A DNA stretch of 47,917 nt from Akkermansia muciniphila. Its GTDB lineage: Bacteria; Verrucomicrobiota; Verrucomicrobiia; Verrucomicrobiales; Akkermansiaceae. The stretch spans positions 1-47,917 of the forward strand of contig CAMCIC010000021.1 of NCBI GenBank assembly GCA_945874895.1, read 5' to 3'. The notes below the pieces were generated by a model. It did no database searches. It had not been told where the DNA came from and worked only from the letters and a program-made list of their open reading frames with translations. This document shows, piece by piece, positions 1 to 47,761 of the stretch; position 1 is the stretch's first letter, and each line of letters starts with the position of its first letter. The translations under genes were made by a program, and so were the position numbers.

Positions 1-528
1 CGCTGGAGCAGTTATGGCGAGGCCGTGGGCGGCGGGGCGAAGGGCAATGGCAAGAAAGCTCGCGAGGGTCTGGTGCGTGCTTGTCTGGGCCATAAGGGCG
101 TGGGATTTGAATCGGAGAAATGGCAGGAAGTGGCGAAGATGTATCGGAAGTTGTTAGGCCTGGCGATTGAGCGCAAGAGCGGAGCGGCAAGTGACGAAGT
201 GGCTGCGGCAAAAAGCAAGCGCCTACATGCGGTGACGCAGAAATCTCGCACTCCGCGCGAAAAGCCCGACCCGAATGCGGTGAAGTTTGGTGACAATGAT
301 ACCGTCTATCAAGAACTGAACATGGCAGCGATGCTGTGTCATCGCGTGCGCTATTTCACGGCGGGAGCGGTGATTGGTAGTAAGGCGTTTGTGAATGAAG
401 CATTTGCCAGCGCGCGCGCGCGTTTTGGTCCGAAACGAAAAGATGGCGCGCGGCGCATGAGAGGTCATGCCGCGGCGGCAGGCAATGTGTTATGGAGCAT
501 GCGAGATTTGCGGGTGGAATGGACCTGA
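1..528 (+). CDS. REP-associated (RAYT/IS200-like) transposase, C-terminal part, 5' end outside window
   Basis: The reading frame is open from the first base and reads RWSSYGEAVGGG before the first possible internal start (GTG at 25), so the gene begins upstream of the window. The visible 175 residues match the C-terminal half of REP-associated tyrosine transposases as I know them: a WSSYGEA segment, a basic helix, then HRVRYFTAGAVIGSKAFVNE followed by an RFGPKRKDGAR segment and a final MRDLRVEW. These proteins are single-strand DNA transposases related to IS200 TnpA and mobilise or maintain palindromic repeats. The catalytic HUH and tyrosine region would lie in the missing N-terminal part, so activity cannot be judged. 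It belongs to a different branch from the 150-residue transposase at 46812. Family assignment is from pattern recognition. Confidence 0.75.
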   Translation, partial: RWSSYGEAVGGGAKGNGKKAREGLVRACLGHKGVGFESEKWQEVAKMYRKLLGLAIERKSGAASDEVAAAKSKRLHAVTQKSRTPREKPDPNAVKFGDNDTVYQELNMAAMLCHRVRYFTAGAVIGSKAFVNEAFASARARFGPKRKDGARRMRGHAAAAGNVLWSMRDLRVEWT

Positions 529-43831: not shown

Positions 43832-44086
43832 ATGATCAAGACCCAGATTCAGATTCCTGATGAATTGTATCATACGGCAAAGGCCATTGCCGAGCAGCGC
43901 GAGTGGTCGCTGGCAGAAGTCGTAAGGCGCGGACTGGAACACATGGCCCTTGCTTATCCCGTCAGACCGGTCAAACCAGACTGGCAGTTGCCCGTGCTCA
44001 AAAAAGGAGATTTTCGCCGCGGTTGGGAACAACTGGATCTCAAGGCATTGGCAGAAACGGATGAAATTCGAGAGATGATACCATGA
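43832..44086 (+). CDS. vapB: VapB-type antitoxin (ribbon-helix-helix)
   Basis: An 84-residue protein. IKTQIQIPDELYHTAKAIAE is the beta-strand and first helix of a ribbon-helix-helix DNA-binding fold, and REWSLAEVVRRGLEHMAL is the second helix. The C-terminal stretch (GDFRRGWEQLDLKALAETDE) would wrap the toxin and cover its active site. The last four bases overlap the vapC start (ATGA), which gives translational coupling and a fixed antitoxin to toxin ratio. The promoter overlaps an inverted repeat, fitting autoregulation. Confidence 0.85.
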   Translation: MIKTQIQIPDELYHTAKAIAEQREWSLAEVVRRGLEHMALAYPVRPVKPDWQLPVLKKGDFRRGWEQLDLKALAETDEIREMIP

Positions 44087-44526
44087 TCGCCATCGATACG
44101 AACATCTTGCTCTACTCACTCGATCCGGAATCGAAATCGCACCGAGCTGCCGTGGCTTTTCTCCAGGAATGCTTCGGTGATGCCAGCAAGCGCATCGTTC
44201 TGTGTGACTACGTGCTGACGGAGCTGTATGTTCTGTTGCGCAATCCTGCCGTGCTCAGCCATCCGCTCTCTGCCAAGTCGGCCCGCGATCTGGTGGTTTC
44301 CTATCTTGACATTCCGAACGTGAGAAGAGTCGAGCATGCTGCCGTCATGGATCAAGTATGGAACGCCGCAGGCTCGAAGGACTTTGCACGACGTCGGATT
44401 TTCGATGCGCGCCTGGCTCTCACCTTGCGTCATCATGGTGTGACGCACTTTGCCACCGCGAATGTCAAAGATTTCCAAGGCTGGGGTTTCACCAAGGTTT
44501 GGAACCCACTGTTGCGTCGCGCATAG
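44083..44526 (+). CDS. vapC: VapC-type PIN-domain ribonuclease toxin
   Basis: A 147-residue PIN-domain endoribonuclease. The acidic residues of the metal site are in MIAIDTNILLYSLD (first aspartate), DYVLTELYVLL (glutamate), RRRIFDARLALTL (third acid) and FATANVKDFQGWGF (fourth). It would cleave RNA, often initiator tRNA or rRNA, when VapB is degraded. Length and spacing are normal for VapC. The final residues (LLRRA) and stop codon lie in DNA that resembles the spacer of the repeats at 46431-47761, so the C-terminus may have been altered by a repeat insertion. Confidence 0.88.
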   Translation: MIAIDTNILLYSLDPESKSHRAAVAFLQECFGDASKRIVLCDYVLTELYVLLRNPAVLSHPLSAKSARDLVVSYLDIPNVRRVEHAAVMDQVWNAAGSKDFARRRIFDARLALTLRHHGVTHFATANVKDFQGWGFTKVWNPLLRRA

Positions 44527-44541
44527 CGGCTTCGGATGCCC

Positions 44542-44635
44542 CCTGATGAATCGTCCCGTTAGGACGAGAAATGTTTGGCAAAACACTCTCCCCACGGTTT
44601 CTCCGTGGGCTTGGATAAATGGTCCCTTGGGGACC
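44542..44635 (+). repeat. Triple-hairpin repeat, copy R1 (orientation B)
   Basis: A 94-bp unit of the family described at 46560, here directly downstream of vapC. Hairpin 1 is degenerate (CGTCCCGTTAGGACG), hairpin 2 is CCCACGGTTTCTCCGTGGG and hairpin 3 is GGTCCCTTGGGGACC. It is the only copy outside the transposase array and lies between vapC and the convergent winged-helix gene. Confidence 0.85.
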
Positions 44636-44688
44636 GAAGGCAGAAAATTCGATGGGCTGATCGGATCCTTCAAGGAATGGGCTTTGGC

Positions 44689-45759
44689 TCAGCGGATGGA
44701 GGTGGCGGGACGGACCGCATCTCCATCAGAGTCAGCGAGAACACTCCCCCATTTTTCGCAATCCTCATGGAGGGCCTCGATCAAATGCCTGCCTGTCATC
44801 GTGCGAGACGCGGTCAAGCTTTCGGCGAGGCCCGCTGCAGACAGCGCAGGCATGGCGGCATCGAGCGCCTGACGGAGCTGAATGGCCTGAACTTGCACTG
44901 GAGCATCGTCAAGACCGGGTTGATCGAGCGCTTTGCAAAATGTGTAGATGGCAGAAAACATCGGCATCCAAGCACTCCAACGCGGGAAACCTGAAGGCTG
45001 AGACCAGGTGACAAGCACCTCCCATGCGCCCGGTTTGATCCAGAAAATTTTCTCCCGACCATCCCTGCGCGAACGGATGTGACCAGAGTCCTCCATTTCG
45101 TTCAGCGTGTGCTGGACGGTTTTGGAAAAATAGCCGGTATCCCGAGCGATGGCGGCAGGATGGCCCGATTCATGCGTGAGCAACCAAGCGAAAATTTCAG
45201 CGCGTGCATTGACCCCGAAAAAGGCGCGCAAGCTGAGCAGCAAATTCGCGGCTTGCCGCGGATCCGGCGATCGGCTCGTGTGGCGCAATTCCATCGGATC
45301 ACGCAATAATCCGTGACGGAGAAAGACAGGATCGGGCTGCGGAAAAACCGGCAAAGGACTTCCTGCAGCGGTAAGAAAAAGCGCTTCCGGCTTGCTCCCC
45401 TCTTGTGCTGGTGCAACAAGTGTCAGCCATTTTCTCATCACCGATTGGGTGGTCAGTCCCTCGCTGATGGCGGCAAGCACGCGCAAGTCCGCCACAGGCC
45501 ACTCATCGTGGATGCGACGAAGCCTCTGAAGGTTGATCCGTTCGCCGTTTGCATGAAGCCAATCGATCACCCCATCCAGCAGACGCGAGTCATAGCGCCC
45601 GAAACGCGTGGTCGCTAGCAGCAAAGCCTCGGGATCAATCACGCGATGCTCCCGACCGTTTGCTCGGCCTGCGACGCCCAGGATGGACCACTGGCGCCAG
45701 AGAAAATCGAGGAAACGCTCGAGTAGCCTATCCTTCGAATGTTGGAATGAGGTGTGCAT
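44689..45759 (-). CDS. Winged-helix protein, second gene of a nucleotidyltransferase module
   Basis: A 356-residue cytoplasmic protein of no family I can name. Residues about 175-260 form a winged-helix DNA-binding domain (ARAEIFAWLLTHESGHPAAI, then ARDTGYFSKTVQHTLNEMED, then GREKIFWI as the wing). The N-terminal part (FLDFLWRQWSILGVAGRANG) and the C-terminal helix bundle are unique. The start at ATG 45759 overlaps the end of the nucleotidyltransferase gene (45728) by 32 bp, so the two are translationally coupled. A regulator or antitoxin for the nucleotidyltransferase is the natural guess, as AbiEi is for AbiEii, but the order is reversed and the helix-turn-helix is internal rather than N-terminal. 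Confidence 0.7.
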   Translation of the reverse strand: MHTSFQHSKDRLLERFLDFLWRQWSILGVAGRANGREHRVIDPEALLLATTRFGRYDSRLLDGVIDWLHANGERINLQRLRRIHDEWPVADLRVLAAISEGLTTQSVMRKWLTLVAPAQEGSKPEALFLTAAGSPLPVFPQPDPVFLRHGLLRDPMELRHTSRSPDPRQAANLLLSLRAFFGVNARAEIFAWLLTHESGHPAAIARDTGYFSKTVQHTLNEMEDSGHIRSRRDGREKIFWIKPGAWEVLVTWSQPSGFPRWSAWMPMFSAIYTFCKALDQPGLDDAPVQVQAIQLRQALDAAMPALSAAGLAESLTASRTMTGRHLIEALHEDCEKWGSVLADSDGDAVRPATSIR

Positions 45760-46327
45760 GTCCGAGATGGTGGAGAAGATCGGGAATTTTGTCGCGGTGA
45801 GAGAGAACCGTTCTATGGTCAAGCACCCAACGCAGCGATGCGGCGGTTTCCTCGCTTGTGGGAGCCAGGATGCGAAGGTCGTCAAGATCACGAGGTTTGG
45901 CGCGATTCAATGCCGCATACATCTTCAGCTGAATTTGGCCCGCACGAGCCACAAAGCTGATTTTCAAATCATCCCCATAATCGCGGGTATCCAAATCCTG
46001 CCAGAACGATGCCGGCAGCGAATGCAAATCGGGGAAATGCATCGAAGCCGCATTATTGAGCCAGTTTCCCCCGAGCTTCAATTCGTCTGCCACGGCTGCC
46101 GCAGCTTCCTTGAGGATGGGAGGCATGGGAAATGCGGCATCCACTCCACCCTCCCCGTCGCGCATGTCGAGAATGTCGACATCTTCGGTGGACCTGGAGA
46201 TGATCTCCTGAGCCAACAGGGCAGATCCTCCGCAGACGACCAGCCAAAAGCCAGAGGCCTTCCGAGCAGTCAGCACTTTTCCCAACAACTGGAACGCCTG
46301 CTCCAGATTTTGCTGATTCATTTCCAT
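45728..46327 (-). CDS. Nucleotidyltransferase-fold protein, DUF6036-like
   Basis: A protein of 199 residues from ATG 46327 (or 197 from 46321). WLVVCGGSALLAQEIISRST followed by EDVDILDM is the nucleotidyltransferase signature: GGS loop, then the DxD metal pair. Later blocks LKISFVARAGQIQLKMYAAL and RAKPRDLDDLRILAPTSEET match the DUF6036-type C-terminal helices that follow the catalytic core. Upstream, TTGAAA and TATAAT form a promoter whose -10 box overlaps the longer open frame (to 46351), so I place the start at 46327. It overlaps the winged-helix gene. It could transfer nucleotides to a tRNA or protein, like MenT or AbiEii toxins; this is inference from the fold. Confidence 0.75.
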   Translation of the reverse strand: MEMNQQNLEQAFQLLGKVLTARKASGFWLVVCGGSALLAQEIISRSTEDVDILDMRDGEGGVDAAFPMPPILKEAAAAVADELKLGGNWLNNAASMHFPDLHSLPASFWQDLDTRDYGDDLKISFVARAGQIQLKMYAALNRAKPRDLDDLRILAPTSEETAASLRWVLDHRTVLSHRDKIPDLLHHLGHAHLIPTFEG

Positions 46328-46340
46328 AGAAAGTAGCGCC

Positions 46341-46368
46341 ATTATATCCAAATTGGATGATATTTCAA
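46341..46368 (-). promoter_or_regulatory. Promoter and palindromic operator of the nucleotidyltransferase module
   Basis: On the minus strand TTGAAA (46368-46363) and TATAAT (46346-46341) are 16 bp apart, a near-consensus sigma70 promoter. The spacer contains the palindrome ATCCAAATTGGAT (46346-46358, 6-bp arms, one centre base). A repressor bound there would block RNA polymerase. Confidence 0.65.
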
Positions 46369-46430: not shown

Positions 46431-46522
46431 CGTCCTAACAGGACGATTGATGCCAGCCCACGGAGCATCCGTGGGTAAGGTCCAAGAAAAGTCCCCCTGC
46501 GTCCTAACGGGACGCTTCATCG
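46431..46522 (-). repeat. Triple-hairpin repeat, copy R2 (orientation A)
   Basis: The reverse-complement-oriented unit: CGTCCTAACAGGACG, CCCACGGAGCATCCGTGGG, then GCGTCCTAACGGGACGC and CTTCATCG. The spacer of about 37 bp after it carries a conserved string containing GCGTCGTGCGGCATGATCTT. Confidence 0.85.
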
Positions 46523-46559
46523 AAACACTTGCGTCGTGCGGCATGATCTTCGTATGCCC

Positions 46560-46653
46560 CCTGATGAAGCGTCCCTTTAGGACGCGAAATGTTTGGGGAA
46601 AACGCTCTCCCACGGTTTCTCCGTGGGCTGGGATGAATGGTCCCTTGGGGACC
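46560..46653 (+). repeat. Triple-hairpin repeat, copy R3 (orientation B)
   Basis: Reference copy of orientation B: CCTGATGAAG, hairpin 1 (GCGTCCCTTTAGGACGC), a 28-bp spacer, hairpin 2 (CCCACGGTTTCTCCGTGGG), then hairpin 3 (GGTCCCTTGGGGACC). B and A units are diverged reverse complements of each other, so the array alternates like a BIME. Confidence 0.85.
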
Positions 46654-46689
46654 GAAGACCGGAATCGCATTGTCCCTTGCCTGCCTTCC

Positions 46690-46780
46690 CGTCCTAACAG
46701 GACGATTGATGCCAGCCCACGGAGCATCCGTGGGTAAGGCAACCAAAAGTCTCCCTGCGTCCCAACGGGACGCTTCATCG
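46690..46780 (-). repeat. Triple-hairpin repeat, copy R4 (orientation A)
   Basis: Starts exactly 259 bp after R2. CGTCCTAACAGGACG, CCCACGGAGCATCCGTGGG and GCGTCCCAACGGGACGC are all intact. It ends 31 bp before the transposase start codon, so it is the left-end hairpin unit of the element. Confidence 0.85.
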
Positions 46781-46811
46781 AAACGCTTGCGTCGTCTGAT
46801 ATGCTCTTTGT

Positions 46812-47264
46812 ATGTCACACTCACTCGCCAACGTGATTCTTCACATCGTCTTTTCCACAAAAAAACGCGAACGATCCATGACTGATGCCGTGCGTGATCG
46901 CTTGCATGCCTACATGGCCGAGGTGGGTCGCAACATGGGATGTAAGATGTTTCGCGTTGGAGGAACCGCCGATCATGTGCATTTAGCCGTAGGACTATCG
47001 CGAACTTGTTCGATTGCCGACTTTACGAAAAAAATCAAACATACCAGCTCCTCTTGGCTCAAAGAGCAAGGACGTGAGTTTTATGATTTTTCCTGGCAAG
47101 CGGGATATGGCGTTTTTTCCATCAGCATTTCCCACCTCGAAAAGCTGATTGCCTATATCGAGAATCAAGAAGAGCACCACAAAACCCTATCGTTTCAAGA
47201 TGAGTATCGAAACTTGGTGCGGAAAAATGGGATCATCGTTGATGAAACGCATTTGTGGGATTGA
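46812..47264 (+). CDS. tnpA: IS200/IS605-type Y1 transposase (RAYT), flanked by its repeats
   Basis: A 150-residue single-strand DNA transposase of the HUH superfamily. It has ILHIVFSTKKRERSM at the N-terminus, GGTADHVHLAVGLSRT with the HVH metal pair, ADFTKKIKHTSSSWL, FSWQAGYGVFSISISHLEKL with the region of the catalytic tyrosine, and YIENQEEHHKTLSF near the end. All core motifs are intact, so it may be active. It is preceded by repeat R4 and followed 9 bp after its stop by repeat R5, both pointing inwards in mirror orientation, the classic arrangement of a REP-associated transposase. The start codon lies in sequence that is also found, gene-free, as the spacer in the repeat array. Confidence 0.92.
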   Translation: MSHSLANVILHIVFSTKKRERSMTDAVRDRLHAYMAEVGRNMGCKMFRVGGTADHVHLAVGLSRTCSIADFTKKIKHTSSSWLKEQGREFYDFSWQAGYGVFSISISHLEKLIAYIENQEEHHKTLSFQDEYRNLVRKNGIIVDETHLWD

Positions 47265-47273
47265 AGCACCTCC

Positions 47274-47366
47274 CCTGATGAAGCGTCCCGTTGGGACGCG
47301 AAATGTTTGGCAAAACGCTCTCCCACGGTTTCTCCGTGGGCTGGGATGAAGGGTCCCTTGGGGACC
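47274..47366 (+). repeat. Triple-hairpin repeat, copy R5 (orientation B)
   Basis: First unit downstream of the transposase gene, with all three hairpins intact (GCGTCCCGTTGGGACGC, CCCACGGTTTCTCCGTGGG, GGTCCCTTGGGGACC). It forms the right end of the transposase-bearing element. Confidence 0.85.
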
Positions 47367-47411
47367 AAGAACCATATTTTTCAGAACCGATTCGGTCCTC
47401 GCCTGCTTTCC

Positions 47412-47502
47412 CGTCCTAACAGGACGATTGATCTAAGCCCACGGAGCATCCGTGGGTAAGGCAACCAAAAGTCCCCCTGCGTCCCAACGGGACGCTTCAT
47501 CG
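47412..47502 (-). repeat. Triple-hairpin repeat, copy R6 (orientation A)
   Basis: Intact A unit; the central spacer reads ATTGATCTAAG where other copies have ATTGATGCCAG. It is followed by the conserved spacer and R7. Confidence 0.85.
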
Positions 47503-47539
47503 AAACGCTTGCGTCGTGCGGCATGATCTTCGGATGCCC

Positions 47540-47633
47540 CCAGATGAAGCGTCCCGTTGGGACGCGAAATGTTTGGAAAAACGCTCTCCCCACGGTTTCT
47601 CCGTGGGCTGGGATGAATGGTCCCTTGGGGGAC
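47540..47633 (+). repeat. Triple-hairpin repeat, copy R7 (orientation B)
   Basis: Intact B unit with an extra G in hairpin 3 (GGTCCCTTGGGGGACC). It begins CAGATGAAG where other copies read CTGATGAAG. Confidence 0.85.
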
Positions 47634-47670
47634 CGAAGACCGGAATCGCATGGTCCCTTGCCTGCCTTCC

Positions 47671-47761
47671 CGTCCTAACAGGACGATTGATGCCAGCCCA
47701 CGGAGCATCCGTGGGTAACGCAACCAACACCCCCCCCGCGTCCCAACGGGACGCTTCATCG
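47671..47761 (-). repeat. Triple-hairpin repeat, copy R8 (orientation A)
   Basis: Starts 259 bp after R6. The arm before the last hairpin has a C-run (ACCCCCCCCG) absent from other copies. Its final CTTCATCG overlaps the stop codon of the partial gene at 47756. Confidence 0.85.

Follow-up and report, generated by a model that had tools for sequence, protein, structure and literature searches.

In REPtrons, a low-copy Y1 gene (RAYT, or TnpA-REP, Class 2) lies between inverted palindromic repeats, and gene-free inverted pairs and clusters of these repeats, the REPINs, occur in the genome. The available text of Bertels and Rainey (PMC3116915) describes REPINs as thought to be derived from REPs flanking an ancestral autonomous element. 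PATEs and other ends-only derivatives of IS200/IS605 elements consist of element ends joined after coding DNA has been lost, and a PATE-like copy in Halanaerobium kept the last 58 nt of tnpB between its ends, according to the portion of PMC7290912 used here. TIRtrons carry a Y1 gene (TIRYT) between long inverted repeats, with copies of the TIR elsewhere (Di Nocera 2013, PMC3733652, in excerpt), and in the passages available from Quentin et al. 2018, subclass 2.1, with a helix-turn-helix-like C-terminal domain, accounts for 20 of 26 TIRYTs. The same passages define TnpA-Y1 subclass 1.2 by the motifs DH[IV]H, WQ and Y-x-x-x-Q-x-x-HH, a length of ~148 aa and the entry 'REP: no', and describe it as generally without terminal secondary structures and found mostly in Cyanobacteria and Bacteroidetes. 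Loss of a gene from between element ends is already a known kind of event, of the MITE, PATE or REPIN type.

Here we analysed a 47,917-nt stretch of Akkermansia muciniphila DNA (the window), the right end of which holds a transposase gene, tnpA, between two inverted units, A and B, together with A-B pairs that have no gene. Judged from the sequence, A-tnpA-B is very probably a small Y1/HUH element with inverted three-hairpin ends, and the gene-free A-spacer-B copies its internal-deletion derivatives. The low-copy Y1 gene between inverted palindromic repeats and the gene-free pairs and clusters resemble a REPtron with its REPINs, but there is no Y-x-x-x-NP motif, each end has three hairpins without a GTAG foot, same-genus genomes have at least 4 to 31 unit matches each, and remnants of the deletion are visible. 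Like a PATE, the gene-free copies join element ends after loss of coding DNA; unlike in PATEs, no tnpB was seen beside tnpA, one end is an inverted copy of the other, and more than one genome contains a graded set of deletion products. The locus shares with TIRtrons a Y1 gene between long inverted repeats with copies elsewhere, whereas its protein has 150 aa and subclass 1.2 motifs. It agrees with subclass 1.2 in length, motifs and low copy number, but differs from the subclass as described in the available text by its host phylum, Verrucomicrobiota, and its structured inverted ends. Finally, the middle and outer hairpins match the RNA family Acido-Lenti-1 (RF01687), although the window scores lie below 37 and the third hairpin falls outside the model. 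The open-access literature searched yielded no subclass 1.2 element with REP-like ends, no three-hairpin inverted ends, no graded series and no link to RF01687.

A Y1 transposase gene between inverted three-hairpin units

The right end of the window is made up of four A units on the minus strand and three B units on the plus strand, with a lone B further left (Table 1). These coordinates, from a covariance-model search over 91 positions, agree with the original prediction of an array of B and A triple-hairpin units. That prediction also placed the starts of paired A units 259 bp apart, as was found: the four copies of a 153-nt repeat that includes A start 259, 722 and 259 bp apart. The two 259-bp blocks are 89% identical and, as a repeat pattern, the 259-bp period and the near-identical B-A joints are the mark of tandem duplication.

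Table 1. Features of the array in the window, and tnpA DNA retained in gene-free copies of same-genus relatives (tnpA numbering, in which the gene including its stop ends at nucleotide 453). Fractions out of 200 give shuffles that scored as well.
Feature	Position	Strand	Evidence
Lone B unit	44545..44635	+	95.4 bits
A unit, gene-free copy 1	46431..46521	-	covariance model 95.8 bits
Spacer, gene-free copy 1	46522..46562	+	tnpA promoter and ATG joined to post-stop DNA; 28/35, 0/200
B unit, gene-free copy 1	46563..46653	+	94.9 bits
B-A joint	46654..46689	.	near-identical to joint 47635-47670; score 67 over 36 bases
A unit, upstream terminal inverted repeat of tnpA-bearing element	46690..46779	-	96.8 bits
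tnpA promoter region	46780..46811	+	-10-like TATGCT at 46800-46805
tnpA, 150-aa Y1 (HUH) transposase	46812..47264	+	PF01797, NF033573, motifs
B unit, downstream terminal inverted repeat of tnpA-bearing element	47277..47366	+	93.1 bits
A unit, gene-free copy 2	47412..47501	-	95.3 bits
Spacer, gene-free copy 2	47502..47542	+	28/35 to tnpA -32..+3, 0/200
B unit, gene-free copy 2	47543..47634	+	94 bits
A unit without partner, array right end	47671..47760	-	93.5 bits
G008 C255	tnpA 350-456		80/106 identical, 0/200
G008 C80	tnpA 387-461		57/74 identical, 0/200
G008 C61	tnpA 392-463		54/70 identical, 0/200
G008 C464	tnpA 406-463		41/57 identical, 0/200
G008 C461	tnpA 415-463		37/48 identical, 0/200
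G008 C193	tnpA 417-455		31/37 identical, 0/200
G009 C3	tnpA 407-463		41/56 identical, 0/200
G009 C15	tnpA 409-453		36/44 identical, 0/200
G009 C5	tnpA 420-454		27/34 identical, 0/200

The TnpA protein matched PF01797 (87.5 bits) and NF033573 (69.6 bits; cut-off 55), has the PDB relatives 2fyx and 2a6m, and carries the motifs DHVH, WQ and YIENQEEHH; with HUH and the catalytic tyrosine present, it is a Y1_Tnp of IS200/IS605 type, its fold class being settled by these matches. By its motifs it is of the subclass 1.2 type, and the tyrosine pattern Y-x-x-x-Q-x-x-HH recurred in 109 of a set of 110 loci that includes the one in the window; in place of the Y-x-x-x-NP motif of Class 2 RAYTs it has YIENQEEHH. 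The genome contains no match to this protein besides the window copy; a profile search found two more, weaker Y1 genes there. Compared with the copy in one relative (G005), dN was 0.132 and dS 1.711, indicating purifying selection on tnpA; other comparisons were saturated. The -10-like box lies six bases from the tnpA ATG, and TAnnnT stands exactly six bases 5′ of the ATG in the five closest tnpA copies (G000, the window's genome, and G005, G002, G001 and G009), so that a leaderless mRNA is likely here. A leaderless promoter across the whole family was rejected, with TAnnnT at this distance in 7/109 loci.

A and B are two inverted forms of a single ~90-nt unit with the same three hairpins: the inner one, GCGTCCCnnnGGGACGC, has a GATGAA foot and is followed by ~25 nt of variable sequence, the middle hairpin CCCACGG...CCGTGGG and finally the outer hairpin. 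In 22 units from six genomes (G000, G001, G003, G005, G008 and G009), the 18 base pairs were paired in 98.5% of 396 cells, and six pairs had changes on both sides (0/500 shuffles); one of five measures, further pair types, did not exceed the shuffles (251/500). The usual foot is GATGAA or GATGAG, and a GTAG-type REPIN foot is absent. In CGTC-tagged REPs the stem carries an unpaired CGTC tag at one of its ends; in the unit described here CGTCC belongs to a paired stem, so it is not of that kind.

AATCCTTnAAGGCATTG is a candidate end of the element. A candidate outer end, AATCCTTNAAGGCATTG, had eight matches in the genome at up to two mismatches, compared with one for the backward control, and six of the eight lay 15-29 nt from a unit when compared by hand. 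Directly after the candidate end AATCCTTnAAGGCATT, units on C7, C8 and C13 (L006, L009, L013, L223) adjoin the palindrome-like sequence GGACTGAAGTCC or a variant. The lone B at 44.5 kb (44636-44678) and a half-copy on C11 (L005) have 43 nt in common past the outer hairpin (score 66), and the element may accordingly extend outward beyond its three hairpins, as this common stretch suggests. At the same point within the inner A hairpin, three loci of two relatives (L135, L159 and L158, on G009 C3, G009 C5 and G008 C461) carry a slightly varying stretch of ~29 nt, approximately CAAGATCGCGTGAGGCTAGCCTTTTACGC, which may be a further very small mobile palindrome.

The A-tnpA-B arrangement was likewise found in G001, G002, G005 and G009. 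Across subclass 1.2, inverted similarity between upstream and downstream flanks exceeded the 99th percentile of mismatched pairs at 62 of 109 tnpA loci (47 were not above it) and beat all 100 shuffles at 30/51 loci of Bacteroidota (by title), 23/30 of the window's order and 24/28 others. Three or more hairpins were present in 27% of 215 tnpA flank regions, compared with 0.6% of shuffles and 0.5% of 197 control regions 1.2-1.4 kb away. Structured inverted ends thus look common in subclass 1.2 but not universal, and the window element, with its inverted triple hairpins, differs from a subclass described without REPs or terminal structure. A second tnpA lineage of the order (L111, L112, L113, L117, L120) has another inner stretch, GGGCTGAAAGCCC or a variant, near the start codon, so the hairpin sequence seems to follow the transposase lineage.

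Two further genes lie near the units. A nucleotidyltransferase-like gene (45728-46351, minus strand) with a weak AbiEii match (25.9 bits) stands beside the array. The DNA left of the lone B (44512-44543) is spacer-like and overlaps the end of a PIN-domain (VapC-like) gene at 44083-44544, which ends within the stretch TTGCGTCG...CTTCGGATGCCCCC (0/1000 shuffles), as if the 3′ end of the PIN toxin gene had taken the place of the A half of a copy, or been fused to it.

Spacers of gene-free copies match the flanks of tnpA

Both 41-bp spacers in the window aligned without gaps to positions -32 to +3 of tnpA, as had been claimed for a spacer resembling the DNA upstream of the gene including its start codon (Table 1). 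The spacer quoted with that claim, however, mixed two copies: copy 1 reads ...CTTCGTATGCCCCCTGATGAAG and copy 2 ...CTTCGGATGCCCCCAGATGAAG. The retained part includes the -10-like box six bases before the ATG. As to the predicted direct join to the DNA behind the stop codon, the spacer does continue into post-stop DNA, but its 3′ part matches from 7 bases past the stop; the gene copy reads AGCACCTCCCCTGATGAAG after TGA, and those 7 bases are also gone from the spacer junction. Taken by itself this 3′ junction is weak evidence, since the CCCCTGATGAAG in common consists largely of the following hairpin's foot; that side of the deletion rests on copies of other genomes in which 3′ codons remain.

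Elsewhere in the genome, the gene-free copies on C15 (26/35) and C11 (27/35) matched the same interval of tnpA (each 0/200 shuffles), and a half-copy on C11, delimited by hand at 41 nt, matched -26 to +4 (23/30, 0/200). An A-B gap of 41 recurs at four places on three contigs (C21 twice, C11 and C15); like a REPIN, the derivative thus has two inverted palindromic units with a short spacer and is dispersed. A genome-wide search had been proposed for gene-free copies, and those on C11 and C15, with a spacer of 41 ending at the tnpA ATG, are what it found. On C15 the spacer reads ATGGCCCC and four related tnpA genes start with ATGGC, and the join may have used a 2-base overlap.

The alignment of spacers with the tnpA flanks was extended to 20 hand-delimited spacers, with shuffles that kept base composition only, and the similarity held: 14 of the 20 matched tnpA or its promoter at 0/200 (five in G000, three in G009, six in G008). 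The other six (four in G000, including the half-copy at 44.5 kb, and two in G008) missed this level. Weak spacers in G000 were those of C7 (7/200) and C9 (6/200); the tnpA match failed for C8 (57/200 shuffles as good), and for the 44.5-kb half-copy there was none (172/200), although this half-copy matches a window spacer (0/1000).

Copies in relatives keep the 3′ end of tnpA

Nine gene-free copies in two same-genus relatives, G008 and G009, still have the final 11-34 codons of tnpA, with its stop, next to B (0/200 shuffles; Table 1). Some of the nine have an incomplete A or B, and two (G008 C61 and C464) also keep promoter-like DNA, as seen by eye. In G008, the spacers of C185 (14/14 at the stop) and C403 also hint at tnpA remnants, each at 3/200. 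The breakpoints differ among gene-free copies, indicating that tnpA was lost from A-tnpA-B more than once, and the retained codons, hard to explain otherwise, indicate that the gene was lost and not gained. No one deletion boundary therefore holds for all copies: the 41-nt spacer recurs on three contigs, and other breakpoints occur in G008 and G009. The best tnpA of G008 is 49% identical to that of the window, and in this assembly, which is 82% complete, the gene-free copies seem to outlive their parent element.

Dispersal of the units

Unit matches (E≤0.01) were found in all 10 genomes of the genus searched, the window's own included, at 4-31 or more per genome, with the best 150 of ~900-2700 candidates scored in each. 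The window's genome holds at least 23 unit matches against one tnpA of the window type, and in G006 units were present and no tnpA match was found. The C15 copy sits before a 359-aa frame, kinase-acetyltransferase-like by eye, and for the gene to its right the corresponding loci of 9/9 same-genus relatives carry no unit at E≤0.1. A search on that side gave no clean empty site, the left DNA of seven relatives being unlike that of G000 by eye. The flanks of the window units shared no similarity scoring 30 or more with the flanks of the C15 pair or of the 7-kb pair on C11.

Outside the genus, tnpA remnants were absent from dispersed units at 13 loci of Verrucomicrobium sp. BvORR106 (G057) and at three of six matches of G027. 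G057 (L235-L247) has at least 41 matches to the upstream end of tnpA, with 40 of 94 candidates scored, and its form of dispersal differs from the pairs of the window. Nine facing pairs in an Acidobacterial genome (G059) resemble each other in two groups, several having the same three-hairpin pair architecture by eye, and had no similarity to the one tnpA context tested, that of L026. With no tnpA remnant at these loci of G057 and G027, and no resemblance of the G059 pairs to that one context, deletion of tnpA is not established as the general origin of the units. The earlier proposal of derivation by gene loss holds for copies in G000, G008 and G009, but not for every dispersed unit.

Relation to the RNA family Acido-Lenti-1

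RF01687, which is labelled sRNA, models two of the unit's three hairpins; in each of the four window A units it matches the middle and the outer one, at 28.6-31.6 bits (gathering cut-off 37). Among 4227 families it was the sole match at E≤0.1, with 21 matches in 20 of 30 loci (L104-L133); 16 of these lay within 300 nt of tnpA, in 10 of the 20 loci, 14 pointing outward and two inward by hand count. The inward ones are at L110 and L104, the latter being the next A unit of the window array, while at L105, L118, L129 and L132 each side of tnpA has an outward match. Matches near tnpA exceed the cut-off at L129 (41 bits), L132 (39.9) and L032 (38.6); L032, beside tnpA, was the one match among 20 further loci at the gathering threshold.

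Across 57 genomes, RF01687 occurred in 36 of the 42 that have a tnpA match and in 3 of the other 15 (Fisher p 8e-6, a value that ignores kinship and genome size). Among the 150 RF01687 matches listed for these genomes, 13 lay within 300 nt of one of 122 tnpA matches (0.091 expected), all 13 outward, at 13 genes of 10 genomes; within 1000 nt there were 21, of which 17 were outward. Fourteen control genomes had no RF01687 match. Of 14 genomes chosen for tnpA, ten had RF01687, which was absent from G060, G062, G068 and G069. Nine were searched for adjacency among the matches listed: G063, G065 and G071 have RF01687 45-56 nt from tnpA, outward (in G065 with an additional inward match at 188 nt), and in the remaining six, among them G058 (Lentisphaera) and G059 (Acidobacterial), no listed match lies within 300 nt. 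In G058, where scores reach 57.1 bits, the nearest listed match is ~308 nt from tnpA and points inward, and G060, like G059 a member of the Pyrinomonadaceae, has tnpA and no RF01687 match; adjacency is therefore not established in the phyla after which the family is named.

On balance, we favour the reading that RF01687 represents a portion of the terminal inverted repeat carried by elements of TnpA-Y1 subclass 1.2 and is not chiefly an RNA gene. The triple-hairpin ends and gene-free pairs would then form a large REPtron-like system in several phyla (Verrucomicrobiota, Acidobacteriota, Lentisphaerota, Planctomycetota, Chlamydiota, Bacteroidota and relatives), the birth of which by loss of the transposase gene is still readable in the genus of the window. 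The preference is a modest one, given that G060 has no match and that matches were counted among those listed. A link between Acido-Lenti-1 and a transposase was not found in the open-access literature searched, as far as its available text goes; the accessible part of one report considers the family a possible regulator of protease genes in Tannerella (PMC13298647).

Discussion

The derivation of the spacers, the retained 3′ codons, the differing breakpoints and the 41-bp derivative on three contigs together establish the deletion at the level of sequence; as in MITEs and PATEs, the spacer alignments point to internal deletion from an autonomous element. This bears out the original prediction of MITE-like internal-deletion derivatives. 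The reverse order of events, with an ancestral gene-free pair into which tnpA was later inserted, would suit the excess of units over genes in G000, but promoter and ATG, or 3′ tnpA codons, sit at corresponding places in the gene-free copies; an insertion would leave no codons in the empty form, and we regard this order, largely contradicted by the retained codons, as very improbable. Hardly more credible is that no deletion took place and that the A unit merely extends into the promoter: the promoter-side similarity of the five G000 spacers would by itself fit, yet the ATG is included, and G008 and G009 retain coding DNA from its opposite end.

How the copies spread is a separate matter. Recombination, through tandem duplication and gene conversion between units and not through TnpA, is suggested by the 259-bp periodicity, near-identical joints and closely similar blocks of the window array, but the same derivative lies on C11 and C15 in surroundings unlike those of the window, and the C15 site is without units in all nine relatives; recombination accounts for the array and not for dispersal, and as the general route is unlikely. 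That the hairpins are a functional small RNA, with the transposase a mere companion, draws on the match of RF01687 to all four A units, on the entry 'RNA? y' (probably) for Acido-Lenti-1 in the visible part of a 2010 table, on 4 of 14 genomes chosen for tnpA being without RF01687, and on G058 and G059, with no listed match within 300 nt of tnpA, and G060. We think it a poor prospect, given that RF01687 occurs in inverted pairs and arrays, tracks the presence of tnpA, and in the 57 genomes points outward in all 13 listed matches within 300 nt of the gene.

For the internal-deletion origin, the following course is conceivable. The coding region would be lost while both ends are kept with promoter and start codon, leaving an inverted A-B pair that may be a mobile, cargo-free unit like a REPIN. 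TnpA from an intact copy could act in trans on single-stranded A and B hairpins, by which we infer that gene-free copies spread. In the available text of PMC8266576, IS200/IS605 elements transpose as single-stranded DNA, with guide sequences 5′ of each palindrome choosing the cleavage sites; by analogy, A and B are proposed as such sites. The 259-bp array near tnpA would have grown by tandem duplication, and single units would arise on loss of one half.

To our knowledge, direct intermediates of REPIN origin are seldom seen. Here, a graded series is readable, from the whole element through copies with 11-34 codons to those with promoter and ATG only. The element gives a subclass described without REPs a likely substrate, and our results suggest that a candidate non-coding RNA family, RF01687, may be transposon DNA. 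In the genome of the window, one can see directly how a transposon can give rise to repeats without the gene.
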